IMG/VR virus record: IMGVR_UViG_3300017963_000559
Span: 1 to 32,620 of that record
Source of the DNA: a virus
Reading direction: 5' to 3' (one strand)
Length of the DNA: 32,620 bases
Under the pieces are notes generated by a model. The model was not told the DNA's origin, did not search any database, and saw nothing but the letters and a program-made list of their open reading frames with translations. This document shows positions 2,971 through 32,620 of this stretch, piece after piece (the stretch's first letter is position 1; every line of letters starts with the position of its first letter). The position numbers were made by a program, and so were the translations under genes.

Positions 2971-3342
2971 TCATTCATCCGCTAAGGGTATTAAAAATTC
3001 TGTAAAATTGCGTTGCCCTCTCTTATCTGCGCATTTTAAAAAATCTTCCATCTTTTCTAGAAAAATGTATCCATCAGGAAAAACAACAGCCATGAAATCA
3101 GCTTTTCTAGATGGCTCATAAATATGTTCTGTTCTAAAGCTAAATGCTTCTTTTCTTTTCTTAAGAGCCTTAACCTCTACATTGAAAGCGCGGGTTCCAT
3201 TATGAATGGTTAGATCAAATCCGGTAGCGTTTTTGTGTTTTATATTTAGAATTTCGAATCTTCTATTTCTTAAAAAATCTATGACTAAATATACCGCCTC
3301 GTCGTGATCAAAACACTTCCAGCCTGTTGCTTGCTTTTTCAA
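2971..3342 (-). CDS. PD-(D/E)XK nuclease-like protein
   Basis: A 123-residue protein. GFDLTIHNGTRAFNVEVKAL reads as the core of a PD-(D/E)XK nuclease: Asp in GFDL, then Glu-X-Lys in VEVKA, preceded by a helix and strand (AVYLVIDFLRNRRFEILNIKHKNATG). Such small phage members act as resolvases or restriction-like or repair endonucleases. It starts at TTG, overlapping the upstream stop by 4 bases (TTGA), with GAGGAAGGAGCGGAG just before. The assignment rests on this single motif, so substrate and activity are open. Confidence 0.55.
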   Translation of the reverse strand: MKKQATGWKCFDHDEAVYLVIDFLRNRRFEILNIKHKNATGFDLTIHNGTRAFNVEVKALKKRKEAFSFRTEHIYEPSRKADFMAVVFPDGYIFLEKMEDFLKCADKRGQRNFTEFLIPLADE

Positions 3343-3551: not shown

Positions 3552-3807
3552 TCATTGCCCCTTCCTCGTATTCGTGCCAGAATTTGCTTTCATCCCAATC
3601 TATTATGCTGCACTCATATTCAAAAATATCATTTCCAAGCTTTATTTCGGTTACATTTTTTATATATATTTCCCTATATTCATCGGCTAAATCACAAAGA
3701 TTTTTTAAAGCAATATACACTTGATCTTCTATATATGGATCACTTGTTATTGTTTTTGCCTTGGTTTTGGCTTCACAAAGAAGCATGTAATATTCAAGTT
3801 CGGTCAT
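3544..3807 (-). CDS. Small acidic protein, unknown
   Basis: An 87-residue protein starting MTELEYYMLL; GGAG lies 6 bases before this ATG, which is therefore preferred to the ATG four codons earlier (3819). It is mostly helical and acidic, ending HEYEEGAMID, where EEGA again coincides with the Shine-Dalgarno sequence (GAGGAAGGGGC) of the following gene. It overlaps its upstream neighbour by about 14 bases. No domain recognised; likely an early accessory protein. Confidence 0.55.
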   Translation of the reverse strand: MTELEYYMLLCEAKTKAKTITSDPYIEDQVYIALKNLCDLADEYREIYIKNVTEIKLGNDIFEYECSIIDWDESKFWHEYEEGAMID

Positions 3808-3994
3808 CGTTTTCTCCATGATCTAACATAAACAAAAGCCTCTGAGCTGCCATTACTACTTTTGTTTCTGTGCACTGCTCGCAGATCCATCTGAGGGTTT
3901 TTTTGACCTCGGCCATCTGGGTTTCCGCTCGGGTAAATCCACCCTGTCCGGGGTCACATGTTGCACCGATAACGTTAGGTTTTTCTTTTGACAT
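3794..3994 (-). CDS. Small helical protein, unknown
   Basis: A 66-residue frame starting MSKEKPNVIG, with a helical, natural-looking C-terminal half (RAETQMAEVKKTLRWICEQC, then VVMAAQRLLFMLDHGEN). AGGCGG lies about 10 bases upstream. It overlaps for most of its length the zinc-ribbon frame on the same strand in another phase. Either both are translated, or the two are halves of one protein separated by a -1 shift near the A-rich run AAAAGAAAAACC (about 3981-3992). The amino-acid quality favours this frame over the C-terminal half of the overlapping one. Confidence 0.5.
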   Translation of the reverse strand: MSKEKPNVIGATCDPGQGGFTRAETQMAEVKKTLRWICEQCTETKVVMAAQRLLFMLDHGENDDRT

Positions 3995-4083
3995 GCCTTG
4001 CATACCGCCTGAGTTGTTGTTGGAATGTTTTGCCAATAAAGTATCTCACCACAGAAAGGACATTTAACTGCGTAGTTTTTCAT
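3856..4083 (-). CDS. Zinc-ribbon protein, first gene after the parS-like site
   Basis: A 75-residue frame. The first 33 residues (CPFCG at 8-12, then CKAC at 28-31) form a plausible zinc ribbon, and AAGGTG lies 6 bases before the ATG. The remainder (residues 42-75) is Pro/Lys/Arg/Ser rich and looks poor, while the overlapping frame looks better there. The start is well supported, the end less so. It is the first gene of the early operon, with its start codon 12 bases from the palindrome TGTTTCACGTGAAACA. Confidence 0.5.
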   Translation of the reverse strand: MKNYAVKCPFCGEILYWQNIPTTTQAVCKACQKKNLTLSVQHVTPDRVDLPERKPRWPRSKKPSDGSASSAQKQK

Positions 4084-4094
4084 TGCACACCTTA

Positions 4095-4110
4095 TGTTTC
4101 ACGTGAAACA
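4095..4110. promoter_or_regulatory. parS: Perfect parS-like palindrome
   Basis: TGTTTCACGTGAAACA is a perfect 16-bp palindrome, identical to the consensus chromosomal parS bound by ParB/Spo0J in many bacteria. It lies in the short control region between a terminator and the first early gene. A chance exact match in about 33 kb is very unlikely (of order 10^-5). No ParA and no ParB with its parS-binding HTH is seen in the window, so a host ParB is the likely binder. A phage-specific operator with the same palindrome is the alternative. Confidence 0.6.
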
Positions 4111-4121
4111 ATAATCATAAT

Positions 4122-4127
4122 TCTTAT
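4122..4127 (-). promoter_or_regulatory. Possible early promoter region upstream of parS-like site
   Basis: On the minus strand the AT-rich stretch between the terminator and the palindrome (4111-4146) contains TATGAT-like -10 candidates (TTATGATTATTG, about 4111-4122), but no convincing -35. If used, transcription would begin inside or next to the TGTTTCACGTGAAACA palindrome, making it an operator. This is a weak call, based on position as the only gap ahead of an operon of a dozen genes. Confidence 0.2.
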
Positions 4128-4146
4128 TTCCATTAAGTCCTTCGTT

Positions 4147-4179
4147 AAAAATCGGGCAGTGTATTTTACACTGCCCGAT
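4147..4179 (-). terminator. Strong rho-independent terminator after the SSB-like gene
   Basis: A 13-bp perfect stem (ATCGGGCAGTGTA at 4151-4163 and its complement at 4167-4179) with a 3-base loop is followed on the minus strand by TTTTT. It ends the HTH-RecT-SSB operon and insulates it from the downstream early operon. The other side of the stem lacks a T-tract, so it acts mainly on the minus strand. Confidence 0.85.
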
Positions 4180-4230
4180 TAATTAAGTTGAGGACGTTCG
4201 AAAAAAAAACGGGGATAATCAGGAGGTGCA

Positions 4231-4692
4231 TTAGAATGGCAAGTCCTCACTATCTAATGCCCTTTTCTTATCGGCGCCTTTTTTAGAACCTTTAGAAAAA
4301 AACTTCGAAGCAGTACTTTTATCAAGCTGTCCTTTCATACTACCAGATGCATTATTACCCTCACCGTCTTTATAAATTGCCTGCACATTAGCGTATGTTC
4401 TGCCGCCAGATTCATCGTGAATAACGTTTACATCGTAATAATCGTTACAATTAAGCCATCCCGATTCAACCCCCTCGGCAAAATTCTCGTCAAGTTCTGT
4501 GCGTTTTGCACCCATAACATTTAACATCTTATGACAATAACCTTTTGCCGCTTCGCTTTCATAACTACACGACCATCGCACTCGCTCACCATTAGTTGAT
4601 TCAAATAAAACCACAACGCGAAGTCTTCCCGTTTGCGTCTCGGTTAGTCCATAATCAATTACCTGTGCTCGATGTATACCTTCATCAATCAT
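4231..4692 (-). CDS. SSB-like single-stranded DNA-binding protein
   Basis: A 153-residue protein. The C-terminus, ALDSEDLPF, is the acidic tip with terminal D-L-P-F typical of bacterial and phage SSBs, which recruits partner enzymes. The N-terminal about 110 residues are beta-rich (RLRVVVLFES, RVRWSCSYES, YYDVNVIHD) as expected of an OB-like fold, followed by a Gly/Ser/Lys linker. It directly follows the RecT-like gene with an 8-base overlap, and AAGGAG precedes the ATG. A GTG two codons earlier is an alternative start. It is likely to coat single-stranded DNA for the annealase. Confidence 0.7.
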   Translation of the reverse strand: MIDEGIHRAQVIDYGLTETQTGRLRVVVLFESTNGERVRWSCSYESEAAKGYCHKMLNVMGAKRTELDENFAEGVESGWLNCNDYYDVNVIHDESGGRTYANVQAIYKDGEGNNASGSMKGQLDKSTASKFFSKGSKKGADKKRALDSEDLPF

Positions 4693-5470
4693 TTTCACTG
4701 TCTCCTTCTTTTATTAACTGTTCAATGCGATCGTATATTGGGTTCAAATCACAATCGTCATCTTTTTTGGAATTTATGTACGCAATGGCAACCTGTCTTT
4801 TGGCGTCATCTTTTATCTTTTCAGCCGATGCAATTAAAAGATCGATTTGGATAAGTCTAGATGCATTAGCACGATCATTTTTATCTTTTTTCGGTGGCAA
4901 TAAAACAACATCGCCAGCTTCATCAACATCAGCGCCAAGATCATCAAACGTATAGCTAAGCCCAGCAATAGCATCCGGATAAACAGCCGACGCCATGTCG
5001 GAAACCGCACGCCATCGAAGCATGTTTTTTGGATACTTTTTCCAGTTGGATTTTCCTAAAAGCCCAGCACGTCTGGCGTCTTCCATGGTAAACGTAAACT
5101 CCTGCCAGGCGTGAAGCGGACGCTTGGTTCTAACGGTGCAATATTTTTCATCTGAATGTTTGTATTCAACAACCGCGCCCGGACAGTTTTGAAAAATCAT
5201 GGCAAGTTGCAGCTCGGATTTAACCGCGGTTCTTCCGCTTATTACGTCAATCCCCTCAAGTGATCGAACCATGGGAATGCCAAGCTCTCTGCCTTTAAGT
5301 ATAACCATCATCGCTTGTGAAGGAGTTTTTATACTTTCAGGTAAAAACCCTGATTCTAAAAGTGTGGCAGCTTGCCCGTGCATTAATTCCCAATCAGATT
5401 GACTGACCGATGGAACCTGAGCTTGTGTTTTTTCGGCTAACTGAAGTTCGTTTTTTTGTTGTTCTTCCAT
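4685..5470 (-). CDS. recT: RecT-family single-strand annealing recombinase
   Basis: A 261-residue protein. LLESGFLPESIKTPSQAMMVILKGRELGIP, then the variable core with AVKSELQLAMIFQ, then GLLGKSNWKKYPKNMLRWRAVSDMASAVYPDAIAGL is the signature order of RecT-like phage annealases. The C-terminal tail (about residues 205-261) is charged and helical. It promotes annealing of complementary strands during phage recombination and replication, working with the SSB-like protein encoded next. No exonuclease partner is obvious. The ATG at 5470 with GAGGAA 7 bases upstream is preferred; it overlaps the HTH gene by 77 bases. Confidence 0.8.
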   Translation of the reverse strand: MEEQQKNELQLAEKTQAQVPSVSQSDWELMHGQAATLLESGFLPESIKTPSQAMMVILKGRELGIPMVRSLEGIDVISGRTAVKSELQLAMIFQNCPGAVVEYKHSDEKYCTVRTKRPLHAWQEFTFTMEDARRAGLLGKSNWKKYPKNMLRWRAVSDMASAVYPDAIAGLSYTFDDLGADVDEAGDVVLLPPKKDKNDRANASRLIQIDLLIASAEKIKDDAKRQVAIAYINSKKDDDCDLNPIYDRIEQLIKEGDSEND

Positions 5471-5633
5471 CAATGATTTCCTCAACTCGTTCGTGCATAT
5501 AGTGTGGGATGTTACCGCGCCGTAACCACTGATCTATGGTCGCGTCTGTCTTATAACCCAGCTCATAAGCTAGTAGCATCTTTGAGTTTTTCGGGTTATT
5601 AAGCCAGTGTATTAATTTGTCTTGCAAATCCAT
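5394..5633 (-). CDS. Small HTH DNA-binding protein (Cro-like)
   Basis: A 79-residue protein. LLAYELGYKTDATIDQWLRR has the spacing of a helix-turn-helix with the recognition helix at TDATIDQWLRRG, followed by GNIPHYMHERVEEII, as in small Cro/CI-type phage regulators. The C-terminus is a basic, Ser/Thr-rich tail. The start is fixed by GAGGAG four bases before the ATG; in-frame ATGs further upstream lack this. As first gene of the RecT-SSB operon, with an inverted repeat upstream, it probably regulates its own promoter. Confidence 0.7.
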   Translation of the reverse strand: MDLQDKLIHWLNNPKNSKMLLAYELGYKTDATIDQWLRRGNIPHYMHERVEEIIDGRTTKKRTSVSRKNTSSGSIGQSI

Positions 5634-5661
5634 TTTACTCCTCATATCGCGCAAATCTGTA

Positions 5662-14405: not shown

Positions 14406-17056
14406 TATGCTAACCTAAATCCTTGTCTGTTTAGATTTAAAATCACATCGGCAAGTTGCTGCTCGCCAACTTGAAGATTAACCGTCATTGATTGTGGCGC
14501 TGCTTGCGTGGGTTCTTGACGTGACGAAGCCAGCTCATCGATCAAACCAAAAAGTTGACCTACACGATTTGACGGAACAACCATCTCGCCACTTGTAAGT
14601 GCTGCTGGATACGTGTCGTTTGGAAACCCTTGAGGAACAATGCCTCCAGATTGAAACCCTAGTATGTCTCCGATTGTACCGCCGCCGCCACTAATGGCGT
14701 CTCCGATATCATCAAGCCAGCCAGGGCGTTTGATGGTAAACTCGAAATCAAATAAATCATCTAACCAATCTGGTGCTTCTATAGTTATACCCGATAACCA
14801 CGCTGGTTCGGGAATACTGATTTCGGGTAGCTTGATAGAATTTGAAAACGAGTCGGCAAGTGATGCTCCTATATTGGCTACGGCTGCTTTAAATCCGCGA
14901 GCGATAGCCTCACCTATAGCCATCGCGGCTCGGCCAAGACCACGAACTATGCCCTGAACAAGAGCGGCGGCGACACGAGGAATTGCCTTAATTAAAGCCA
15001 CAACAATACGTTCAAGACCGCCTTCGACAAGAAGCGAATCAATCAAAGCCTCTATAATCTCTCCGGCTGCTGCCGTTAGCCCCTCGACAAGAGCAATAAC
15101 CACAGGAGCTATGTTTTCAGCAATTGCCTCCATAAGAGGCGCAATAGCATCGGCCAGGGCTTTAATAATTAACGGTAACGCATCGGTGATGGCTGTAATT
15201 AATGCCGGAAGTCCTTTAAGAAGTTCGGCTATCAAATCCGGCAGGGCTTCAGCCAGGTTTTTAATAACATCTGGAAGACGTTTAACAAGCTGGGTTGCCG
15301 CGTCTAAAATTGCTGCGGCAAATGCCGGAGCTTGTTCTGCAATAACTTCACTAAGAGCCACAAACCCTCGGGCAATTTCAGGTGCTAGCTCAACTAGTTT
15401 TTCAATAACACTTTGAATGATACCAGGAAGTGAATTTATTATATCTGTTATCGCATCTGGAAGCGTATCAATAAGTCCGGTTAGTATTTCATCGAAATTT
15501 TCAAACGCTTGTTTAAACTGTAATGGTGCCGTGGCAATAGATTCTGTTGCCTTTGCAATACGGCCAACACCCGCACCTGAGAATAGATCGAAAAACAAAT
15601 CAGCAGTTTTTGTTACAGCAGGAACTACCTTATCTATAAAAAACGATGCACTGATACTAACACCTTTTTCTACAATCTCGCCCACTTCTGCTGCAATAGA
15701 TAACGCGCTTTTTGTCTCCTGCTGTGTTTGCTCGGTGGTTTTTCTTACACCAGACTGGGTTTTTTCAAGTTCTTTTATGAGTTTTTGGCCGTTTGTACCA
15801 ACAGCGTCAACTAAAAACTCTATTCCAGTTTCAATGCCTCTAAAAAATGTTTCTGATTCAAAACCAAATGCTAACGAATCTTCTTCTATCTTTTGAAATG
15901 TATCAGAAAGGCTTTCAACATCTTTTTTAACTTCGTTGCCACCGATACCATCGGAAATAGAATCTTGAAGCGATTGTAAAGATGCTTTAGTCTCTTCAGA
16001 AGCTTTTTCAATACCTGGTATGTACTCGCCGATAGTTAGCACTGCCTGTGCAAGTTCTATGATACCAAGTTTTATTATGTCTATTCCATCGGCTAGGTTT
16101 TGAATAAAATCCTGGACGAAATCTAATTTTAAAATTGTTTTTGCAAATATAGAAAAGCCCAAAACAAGAGAATTTATAGCAGCTATAACCCCTTCGAAAC
16201 CTCTTGAAATAAACTTCAAACTACCTACCACAGCAGGCGCAAGCTTTATTATATTAATAACAAGATTGGTAACAAAATCAGTTATCACATCGCGGTTTTT
16301 AGAAATACCGTCGATAAGTTTACTGATGATATCTGAAATACCGCCAATGGCTTTAATAACCACCGGGTTTTTGGTAATTAAAAACCCAATCTCTTCTAAA
16401 AGATCGCCGTACGTGTTTGAAAGCTGAGTTGTAGCACCTGCAAATGTTTTTATTTGAGCCTGAGCGGACCCGCCGTATTGAGAAATTAAAATCTTTGCTG
16501 CCTCGCCTGCACGAAGCTGTTCTTGTGTCAACGCCTTAATTGCAGGATTTACCTCACCAAGCTCTCCGGCAAAACCACCTAGGGTTTTTGCAACCTGGCG
16601 CGTAGCCTCTTCGAGGCTTTTACCAGTAGCTGCAGCAAGTTCCGTAGCGGCTGTTACAACTTCTTTTGCCTGTTCATTTGTTGCCCCAAAAGCCTTGGCA
16701 AGAGCAAGTTGCTGTAAGATAAGTTCATCACCAAACCTGGATGCTTGCTGAATAGATGTGGCATAGTTTTGAAAATCTTGACTGGCTTCTTCTGAAAACT
16801 CTCCAGATGTTTGAAGCGCAGTATTAAGATTATTAATGGCGTCTTCTTGAATAGACGCTGCCTCGGTTACCGCGTCAATGCCTGAAATGATTTTACGACC
16901 GGCAAAAATACCAACCGCACCAACAGCAACTGCTGTTAAACCCGCAAACGCCGTTTCAATAGATTTTAAAGACTTGGTGGCGCTTTTAGCAAACTTCTCA
17001 ACGTTACGTTGAGCTTTTTTGGTTTCGGCTACAAGGGTTAAATCAACAGTTGCCAT
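14405..17056 (-). CDS. Tape measure protein
   Basis: An 883-residue protein, the longest in the window, spanning nearly 2.7 kb. The N-terminus is coiled and Ala/Thr/Lys rich; residues about 200-330 are hydrophobic helices. Residues about 520-700 form a heptad/undecad-like series of Pro-containing helices (LPDAITDIINSLPGIIQS, LPDVIKNLAEALPDLIAEL, LPALITAITDALPLIIKAL). The C-terminus has GGGG hinges and a QSGGIVPQGFPNDTYPAALTSGEMVVP segment typical of tape measures. It sets tail length and delivers DNA or protein at ejection. It starts one base after the frameshifted chaperone's stop (TAATG). Confidence 0.9.
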   Translation of the reverse strand: MATVDLTLVAETKKAQRNVEKFAKSATKSLKSIETAFAGLTAVAVGAVGIFAGRKIISGIDAVTEAASIQEDAINNLNTALQTSGEFSEEASQDFQNYATSIQQASRFGDELILQQLALAKAFGATNEQAKEVVTAATELAAATGKSLEEATRQVAKTLGGFAGELGEVNPAIKALTQEQLRAGEAAKILISQYGGSAQAQIKTFAGATTQLSNTYGDLLEEIGFLITKNPVVIKAIGGISDIISKLIDGISKNRDVITDFVTNLVINIIKLAPAVVGSLKFISRGFEGVIAAINSLVLGFSIFAKTILKLDFVQDFIQNLADGIDIIKLGIIELAQAVLTIGEYIPGIEKASEETKASLQSLQDSISDGIGGNEVKKDVESLSDTFQKIEEDSLAFGFESETFFRGIETGIEFLVDAVGTNGQKLIKELEKTQSGVRKTTEQTQQETKSALSIAAEVGEIVEKGVSISASFFIDKVVPAVTKTADLFFDLFSGAGVGRIAKATESIATAPLQFKQAFENFDEILTGLIDTLPDAITDIINSLPGIIQSVIEKLVELAPEIARGFVALSEVIAEQAPAFAAAILDAATQLVKRLPDVIKNLAEALPDLIAELLKGLPALITAITDALPLIIKALADAIAPLMEAIAENIAPVVIALVEGLTAAAGEIIEALIDSLLVEGGLERIVVALIKAIPRVAAALVQGIVRGLGRAAMAIGEAIARGFKAAVANIGASLADSFSNSIKLPEISIPEPAWLSGITIEAPDWLDDLFDFEFTIKRPGWLDDIGDAISGGGGTIGDILGFQSGGIVPQGFPNDTYPAALTSGEMVVPSNRVGQLFGLIDELASSRQEPTQAAPQSMTVNLQVGEQQLADVILNLNRQGFRLA

Positions 17057-30940: not shown

Positions 30941-32161
30941 TTATAGTTTAACATGCTTTTTACCAGAAAAAGCTTCCCAGCGTTCTATTATAACCTGAAC
31001 ATAATGAGGATCTATTTCCATGCCGTAGCATTTGCGAGAAGTTTTTTCGCAAGCTATGAGAGTTGAGCCAGAACCAAGAAATAGATCAAGAACTAGCTGA
31101 CCTTTGTTAGAACTATGTTTTATTACGTGCGAACATAACTCTGTAGGTTTCTGAGTAGGATGCCCTAGACCTTCAGTAGCTACATGTATTTTATTAAAAT
31201 TCCAAGATGCTAGTGCGTGACCGCTATCGGGGAAATTAAAAACGTGTTTACCTATAGTAAAATAGCAACACAGTTCACTATTCCAACTCCAATGACGTTT
31301 CATTAAAGACGGCATTGGGTTTGGTTTAGACCAAACATTCCAGCCTGTAAATTTAGCCCAATCCGACAAGCCTTCTACTATTCTAGAAAACAAAAAATGA
31401 CTACACCATATGTATACACTTCCGTTTTCTATGATACTTTTTATTTGTTCTAACGCCTTCTCAATTTCAAAACCCTTATCCCAATCTGAATTTTTTAAAT
31501 CATTCATGGCCCTTGAAACCGACGCAGCAACGTTTTTAGAATTAGACGCTACGTTATACGGCGGATCAGTAAAAACCATATCAGCTTTTTGACCGTCCAT
31601 TAGCCTATCAACGTTTTCTTTCACGGTACAATCAGCGCATAAAACCCTATGATCACCTAGTTGAAATAGATCGCCTGGTTTCACCCAAACATCTTTTTCC
31701 TCAACATCGGGAACCTCGTCGGGATCGGTTTGACCCGATATGTCACCCGAAAATCCGATAATGTCATCAAGCTGGTCTTTTTCAAAACCTAAAATATCAA
31801 GATCAAAATCCTCGGATTTTAAATCAAGAATATCAAGCTTTAAAAGCTCATCGTCCCATTCCGAATTGAGGGTAAGCTGATTATCCACAATACCGTATGC
31901 TTTGGCCTGTGTTGGCGTTAAATGCTTTAGGTATATACACGGCACTTTTTTAAGACCGAGCTTTTCGGCGGCCATTACGCGCCCGTGTCCGGCTATTATT
32001 GTCGAATCGTCTTTTAAAAGAACCGGGGAATTAAAGCCGAATTCTTTGATGGACGCTGCAATCTGAGATACCTGATTTTGCGAATGTTTTCGTGCATTTC
32101 TGGCATATGGAATTAGCCCAGAAAGCTCACGATATTCAATGTTAAGTTCCAAAGTGTTCAA
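30941..32161 (-). CDS. ParB-domain DNA adenine/cytosine-N4 methyltransferase
   Basis: A 406-residue fusion. Residues about 8-95 are a ParB/Srx-type N-terminal domain (IPYARNARKHSQNQVSQIAA, GHGRVMAAEKL). Residues about 155-400 are an amino-methyltransferase with DPPY at 199-202, HPTQKP at 334-339 and the AdoMet motif FLGSGST at 361-367, in the order typical of beta-class enzymes. It probably methylates phage DNA to evade host restriction. The ParB part has no parS-binding HTH. The first codon is TTG with AAGGA close by; a TTG three codons later (32152) has better spacing. Confidence 0.85.
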   Translation of the reverse strand: MNTLELNIEYRELSGLIPYARNARKHSQNQVSQIAASIKEFGFNSPVLLKDDSTIIAGHGRVMAAEKLGLKKVPCIYLKHLTPTQAKAYGIVDNQLTLNSEWDDELLKLDILDLKSEDFDLDILGFEKDQLDDIIGFSGDISGQTDPDEVPDVEEKDVWVKPGDLFQLGDHRVLCADCTVKENVDRLMDGQKADMVFTDPPYNVASNSKNVAASVSRAMNDLKNSDWDKGFEIEKALEQIKSIIENGSVYIWCSHFLFSRIVEGLSDWAKFTGWNVWSKPNPMPSLMKRHWSWNSELCCYFTIGKHVFNFPDSGHALASWNFNKIHVATEGLGHPTQKPTELCSHVIKHSSNKGQLVLDLFLGSGSTLIACEKTSRKCYGMEIDPHYVQVIIERWEAFSGKKHVKL

Positions 32162-32230: not shown

Positions 32231-32352
32231 TTCCAGATTTTTTTAAAATAATGTCCAATCGTTAAACAGTTACAAAATCGTAACCGTGCGAATATTCGAC
32301 ATATTTTATTGGATCGGTTTATGCATCAATAATAGTAAAAGGAGGGGATATC

Positions 32353-32550
32353 ATGGAAAATAAAATCAAATGCACGGCGTGCCTTAGATCAATAGATATA
32401 GATAAGAGCGTTGAAATGCCCTTTGAAAAAGGCAAGCGATCAGAAAAAATGAGCATTTGTCTTGAATGCGCTGAAATCATGGATGATTTTGCAATTGAAA
32501 CAATATCGCAACTTATAGAAAAGATTAATGAATTTAACCCCAGGTCGTAG
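32353..32550 (+). CDS. Small zinc-ribbon protein, plus strand
   Basis: A 65-residue protein with CTAC at residues 8-11 and CLEC at 36-39, a plausible zinc ribbon, followed by an acidic helix (AEIMDDFAIETISQLIEKINEF). AAAAGGAGGGG lies at the right distance before ATG, the strongest ribosome binding site on the plus strand. It is transcribed away from the packaging and structural operon. A hairpin overlaps its stop. Possibly an early regulator; family not identified. Confidence 0.7.
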   Translation: MENKIKCTACLRSIDIDKSVEMPFEKGKRSEKMSICLECAEIMDDFAIETISQLIEKINEFNPRS

Positions 32551-32591
32551 CCTGGGGGATTCCTGCAATAAAAATCAAAATTCGTTGCAGG
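32538..32591 (+). terminator. Two hairpins after the zinc-ribbon gene
   Basis: CCCCAGG (32538-32544) pairs with CCTGGGG (32551-32557), overlapping the stop codon. A second pair, CCTGCAA (32562-32568) and TTGCAGG (32585-32591), surrounds an A-rich loop and is followed by GTGATTTTA. The tandem arrangement after the last plus-strand gene suggests transcription termination, although no run of five Ts follows the first. Confidence 0.45.
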
Positions 32592-32620
32592 GTGATTTTA
32601 CCATGTGAAAACTTACCGAA

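Follow-up and report, generated by a model that had tools for sequence, protein, structure and literature searches.

The window, a viral DNA of 32,620 nt analysed over its whole length (IMGVR_UViG_3300017963_000559), carries at positions 4095–4110 the sequence TGTTTCACGTGAAACA, an exact copy of the 16-bp consensus palindrome of parS. This is the form in which the consensus is cited in the portion of PMC10197239 available to us. The site is very probably a ParB-binding site maintained by selection. That it is a genuine parS, kept by the phage for the ParB of its host, is a narrower proposal, which we consider to have about an even chance of being correct.

The preliminary description of this DNA had called the palindrome perfect and canonical. 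The match (no strand assigned) was indeed exact, and it was the sole site in the window, with no second match at ≤3 mismatches. The same description had put the chance of such a match at about 10^-5. The number of exact copies expected from the base composition of the window was 1.2e-5, in agreement with that estimate, and it ignores the other motifs that were open to notice by a reader.

Surroundings of the palindrome

The genes on either side of the palindrome are on the minus strand. The first ORF after it encodes 75 aa with weak, sub-cut-off Pfam matches to zinc ribbons (3856–4083, minus strand). The ATG of this ORF (A at 4083) is separated from the palindrome by 11 bases, one fewer than the 12 given before. 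AAGGTG at 4088–4093 (minus strand; position computed, function by eye) is its likely ribosome-binding site. Small ORFs follow, one of which, of 123 aa (2971–3342, minus strand), is a possible nuclease by a weak, sub-cut-off NOV_C match, and then comes a RuvC-like resolvase at 675–1232. Two arrays of 6-bp tandem repeats were also seen in this region (1669–1743 and 1998–2116), where the ORFs would give Ser/Arg-rich proteins if read.

Upstream of the palindrome is a perfect 14-bp hairpin (4150–4180, minus strand; stem computed), a likely terminator, which was not scored as such by the consensus scan. The stretch 4070–4230 had a folding z of −5.71. Beyond the hairpin lies a 155-aa ORF (4231–4698, minus strand) that matched no Pfam family and, weakly, a single PHROG of unknown function; from its acidic tail, seen by eye, it is perhaps a single-strand binding protein. 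Next are a RecT-like ssDNA annealing protein (4685–5485, minus strand; phrog_4171, E 3.5e-13) and an 86-aa ORF (5394–5654, minus strand), a candidate DNA-binding protein by a sub-cut-off YdaS match (E 0.042) with no PHROG. The ATG at 4083 had been taken for the first start codon of an early block. This did not hold, as the RecT gene and the 155-aa ORF are located upstream, on the far side of the strong hairpin.

Partition genes and other genes of the window

No match to ParA (PF13614) or to the ParB helix-turn-helix (HTH_ParB, PF17762) was obtained in the window at E ≤1, as had been noticed before, and this applies to a linear record of 32620 bases that lacks a terminal repeat and may be incomplete. 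The sole ParB-type domain was also correctly placed on a methyltransferase. Domain searches showed a fusion of ParB_N with an N6_N4 DNA methyltransferase that lacks the ParB helix-turn-helix (30941–32161, minus strand), and the TIGR00180 match in the window was confined to positions 22–99 within this fusion, below the cut-off. Fusions of this kind are reported to be frequent in phages in those parts of PMC12704722 that we could consult. As the binder of the site the fusion protein was ruled out, since the recognition domain is absent. Joint action of the fusion protein with parS is possible, as a candidate only. Partition by phage-encoded proteins was likewise ruled out, neither ParA nor HTH_ParB having been matched.

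The window contained no match to a tyrosine integrase, and no plasmid replication gene was found among the 17 different ORFs covered by 20 PHROG scans. Elsewhere it encodes terminase subunits, a major head protein, a tape measure and an amidase, with weak matches to a portal and an Rz-like spanin. Lipoprotein-like and spanin-like ORFs, recognized by eye, may hint at a Gram-negative host. A mosaic boundary was noticed at one end, where a 99.5% identical contig (L149, 1–2612) departs from the sequence of the window at 32331 (32331–32620) and continues into different DNA.

Over-representation of parS in IMG/VR

The exact 16-mer was present in at least 120 IMG/VR stretches. Two control palindromes with matched dinucleotides, the two that were scanned across IMG/VR, occurred in 5 and 11. 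This suggested that chance accounts for about a tenth, at most, of the stretches with parS. Base composition was ruled out as the source of the enrichment, as Markov models of order 1–5, derived from 107 other viral loci, predicted parS/control ratios of 0.62–1.71.

Near-sites were counted in 120 of these stretches (1,049,592 bases with 146 exact sites), which may not be typical of all. At 1–2 mismatches there were 28 extra sites, 11 of them in one locus (L087), whereas six control palindromes yielded 0, 0, 0, 0, 0 and 1 in the same stretches. At 3 mismatches there was no excess (8 for parS vs 4 to 9 for the controls). The changes in the near-sites fell at positions 1/16 or 5/12 in 33 of 35 cases, and at 8/9 in the other two. 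Positions 1/16 and 5/12 are the loose positions of the published parS consensus. The variation in the 120 stretches thus appears to fit the pattern by which ParB recognizes parS; the window itself holds one site only.

A conserved peptide was also considered as the source of the sites, and was ruled out by their varied neighbours and by the range of the ORFs, from 100 to 1844 aa. Of 57 sites within ORFs of ≥100 aa, 40 were read as VSRET and 17 as FHVK, the third frame being impossible because of a stop.

ParA and ParB were sought, with one family each, in 48 of the 120 contigs, namely those of ≥18 kb, with the control contig L151 excluded. None of the 48 passed the ParB cut-off (TIGR00180) and five gave weaker matches, in a search that can miss divergent ParBs, as only 8 of 14 control genomes scored above the cut-off. 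The match in contig G011 carries an internal stop. ParA was found in one contig, G034 (locus L087). As contigs may be fragments, these absences are no proof. A tyrosine integrase was present in 9 of the 48. The degenerate pattern NGTTYCACGTGRAACN occurred at least twice in 18 of the 48; for the reversed pattern this was so in none. The ParA contig G034 (116662 bases) has 24 parS-pattern sites, many of them TGTTTCACGTGGAACA, in two clusters, and gave no match to ParB by TIGR00180. In another locus (L116, 1–2500), one exact parS and four copies of CGTTTCACGTGAAACG lie within about 2 kb; no ParA match was found there, and its comparison with phages gave nothing informative.

The borrowing of host ParB had been proposed from the start as the simplest idea. 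It is the best reading of these results, because the near-sites vary as parS does and because ParB was found in 0 of 48 and ParA in 1 of 48 of the longer contigs. It is weakened by the single site of the window and by the rarity of the site among terminase relatives of the window (2 of 50, below).

Virus groups that carry parS

Relatives of one terminase were encoded in 33 of the 120 stretches (L067 counted once). Their closest named kin include the Pelagibacter phages HTVC027P and HTVC023P. At 13 of the 33 loci, parS was located 17–135 bp before terL (L019, L027, L029, L042, L066, L083, L088, L093, L097, L101, L111, L119 and L120). When 11 of these gaps, all but those of L066 and L111, were aligned, parS was the sole block kept throughout; at L097 it was TGTTCCACGTGGAACA that aligned, with the exact site directly after it. 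The cultured Pelagibacter phage HTVC027P (MN698241.1) has CGTTTCACGTGAAACA, with one mismatch, at 16412–16427, where no gene is annotated. The scan also covered five further named records, which showed no site at ≤2 mismatches.

L010 is similar to phi29-like phages and has proteins in common with L009, L051, L071, L094 and L096. Four phage records drawn from this comparison were scanned: two one-mismatch sites were found in PZA (17158/19366 bases) and four in Goe18. MT835854 has two exact and two one-mismatch sites, and MT835814 none at ≤3 mismatches.

Three small stretches (L006, L026 and L076; 4.4–6.0 kb) have a replication initiation protein in common, and we infer that they are Microviridae. 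In these, an exact parS lies between the replication gene and the adjoining ORF. A search of phages with the padded 16-mer gave nothing informative.

Placement of the sites and regulation by ParB

With ORFs taken as simple longest-ORF calls, the first sites of the 120 stretches were divided into 59 in ORFs and 61 outside, and random positions fell outside in 15% (1829/12000). Counting all sites, 69 of 146 were inside ORFs; for the two control palindromes, c1 and c2, the numbers were 2/5 and 1/11. The bias towards gaps was rejected as stand-alone proof, because 10 of 11 sites of c2 were non-coding. The number of parS sites within ORFs, unlike the gap bias, is special to parS.

The placement bears on a second role, in which host ParB would act as a transcription regulator: bound at the expected start of the transcript, it would repress the zinc-ribbon/nuclease operon in line with the cell cycle of the host. 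The short distance from the site to the ATG at 4083 and the likely terminator just upstream are consistent with this, and so are the sites before terL in one terminase family. Moreover, 54 of the 146 sites were ≤150 bp upstream of a start, compared with 1874 of 12000 random positions (controls, 1/5 and 0/11). On the other hand, the consensus promoter scan of 3800–4800 found no promoter at the palindrome; the sole site was at 4242–4215, fewer than in shuffles. A weak −10-like hexamer, TATGAT (4114–4119, minus strand; position computed), if used as a −10, would let transcription begin within the palindrome. The many sites inside ORFs also make an operator less likely. Sites in ORFs were about as common as those between ORFs, and a clamp-loading site therefore fits better than an operator. 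Regulation of the early operon, the other use suggested in the preliminary description, is thus possible, with the balance towards a loading site. We consider regulation, although it is the chief rival of tethering or segregation, rather unlikely as the main role, and the two roles may hold together.

Relatives of the window

A profile made from the terminases of the window and of L117 (45% identical) gave 80 IMG/VR loci, and no loci in bacterial genomes. Whole records with a related terminase carried a site at ≤2 mismatches in 2 of 50 cases. One (G071, locus L196) has the one-mismatch site AGTTTCACGTGAAACA. The other (G093, which is L117; L230 is the same contig) has an exact site, and was originally picked by it. 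A local scan of 81 terminase loci added one more (L188, TGTTCCACGTGAAACA). Five control palindromes gave no match at ≤1 mismatch in 78 loci (L167–L244).

The site of L196 is comparable in position to that of the window: it follows an annealing-protein-like ORF and immediately precedes a nuclease-like one (functions by eye). The sites of L188 and L117 are within structural ORFs, where a chance match is likelier. The parS trait is scattered within the related-terminase group. The check proposed earlier, a search for the same 16-mer at the same position in relatives, was thus mostly negative.

Other comparisons added little. The near-identical contigs L122, L149 and L150 stop short of 4095–4110. 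Among 27 RecT loci, one was near-identical and ended before the site position, and the other 26 had no site at ≤2 mismatches. Megablast of 1–25000 and a search with the portal, both against phages, gave nothing informative, and searches for IMG/VR relatives of the ORFs at 4231–4698 and 3856–4083 were also uninformative.

The 48 related records without a site would be expected if the palindrome were a chance match or a functionless relic, and a search for many motifs does turn up some rare ones. Against this stand the minute number of exact copies expected in the window, and the excess of parS over the matched palindromes across IMG/VR. A chance match or relic is improbable on these grounds.

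The palindrome might also be the operator of a phage repressor that coincidentally equals parS. The product of the 86-aa ORF at 5394–5654, which lies 1.3 kb upstream and has the weak YdaS match, would be the rival binder. However, the window has no second operator copy at ≤3 mismatches, and no match to this ORF was obtained in L196, whose site is almost identical, making a repressor operator very improbable. The least credible role is that of a decoy, by which the phage would titrate host ParB and so disturb the segregation of its host. Phage DNA does reach high copy number, and some parS contigs have many sites (such as G034, which also encodes ParA), but 30 of the 48 parS contigs, and likewise the window, held just one site of the degenerate pattern.

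Known systems

The borrowing of host ParB has a precedent. According to the parts of PMC9437464 accessible to us, host Spo0J (ParB) takes the genome of Bacillus phage phi29 into spores. The window shares with phi29 and its relatives (Salasmaviridae) the combination of parS, or parS-like sites in PZA and Goe18, with a phage that lacks ParA and ParB matches. It differs in that the phage is not related to them and has different genes for replication and the head, a single site and no sign of a spore-forming host.

Phage-plasmids and extrachromosomal prophages, such as P1 and some mycobacteriophages, have their own ParABS. They resemble the window in having a centromere on phage DNA, but they encode both ParA and ParB, whereas the window matched neither ParA nor HTH_ParB. 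The Staphylococcus phage Lacachita group has a lone ParB-like gene, annotated in some relatives as a methyltransferase or methylase, and no ParA, and the protein is taken as a partition protein in the sections of PMC10286716 that were at hand. In contrast, the fusion in the window lacks the site-binding domain, and the site is that of chromosomal parS.

Phages are also described, in the same available parts of PMC9437464, as co-opting the host regulators LexA, Spo0A and CtrA through their sites in the phage genome. These are transcription factors, whereas ParB is a segregation clamp.

Among the papers listed by the literature searches, none was a survey of parS across phages. The kind of borrowing is known from phi29; as far as the listed papers go, its breadth and the present phage group are new. 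The strategy had been called distinctive; it is less so, given the exact 16-mer in at least 120 IMG/VR stretches and the published case of phi29 and Spo0J (PMC9437464, as far as the source was accessible).

Proposed use of the site and its implications

In the reading that we prefer, host ParB would load at 4095–4110 during infection as a CTP-dependent clamp. The loaded ParB would slide into the flanking DNA, and the phage genome would then be handled as if it were an origin region of the host. The most likely benefit would be that phage DNA is tethered, or even segregated, during a slow or deferred infection, comparable to the entry of phi29 into spores with Spo0J. Damping of the small operon that starts at 4083 may be a side effect. 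On sequence comparison, it is an evenly balanced question whether such tethering or segregation is the main use of the site.

We give similarly even weight to a broader proposal, that a perfect host centromere has arisen repeatedly in unrelated phage lineages that lack partition genes, namely phi29-like, Microviridae-like and pelagiphage-like phages and the present tailed group, and that these exploit host ParB. Tethering or segregation by a borrowed protein would in that case be a strategy of phages in general, extending beyond the Bacillus phages that enter spores.

If host ParB does load on these sites, a widely conserved segregation protein would be used by viruses that have no partition genes of their own. 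Loading of this kind predicts that parS enrichment would be absent from phages of hosts without ParABS, of which E. coli is, to our knowledge, an example. It would offer a cheap means for the placement or inheritance of phage DNA in slow-growing hosts, and would couple infection to the cell cycle of the host.
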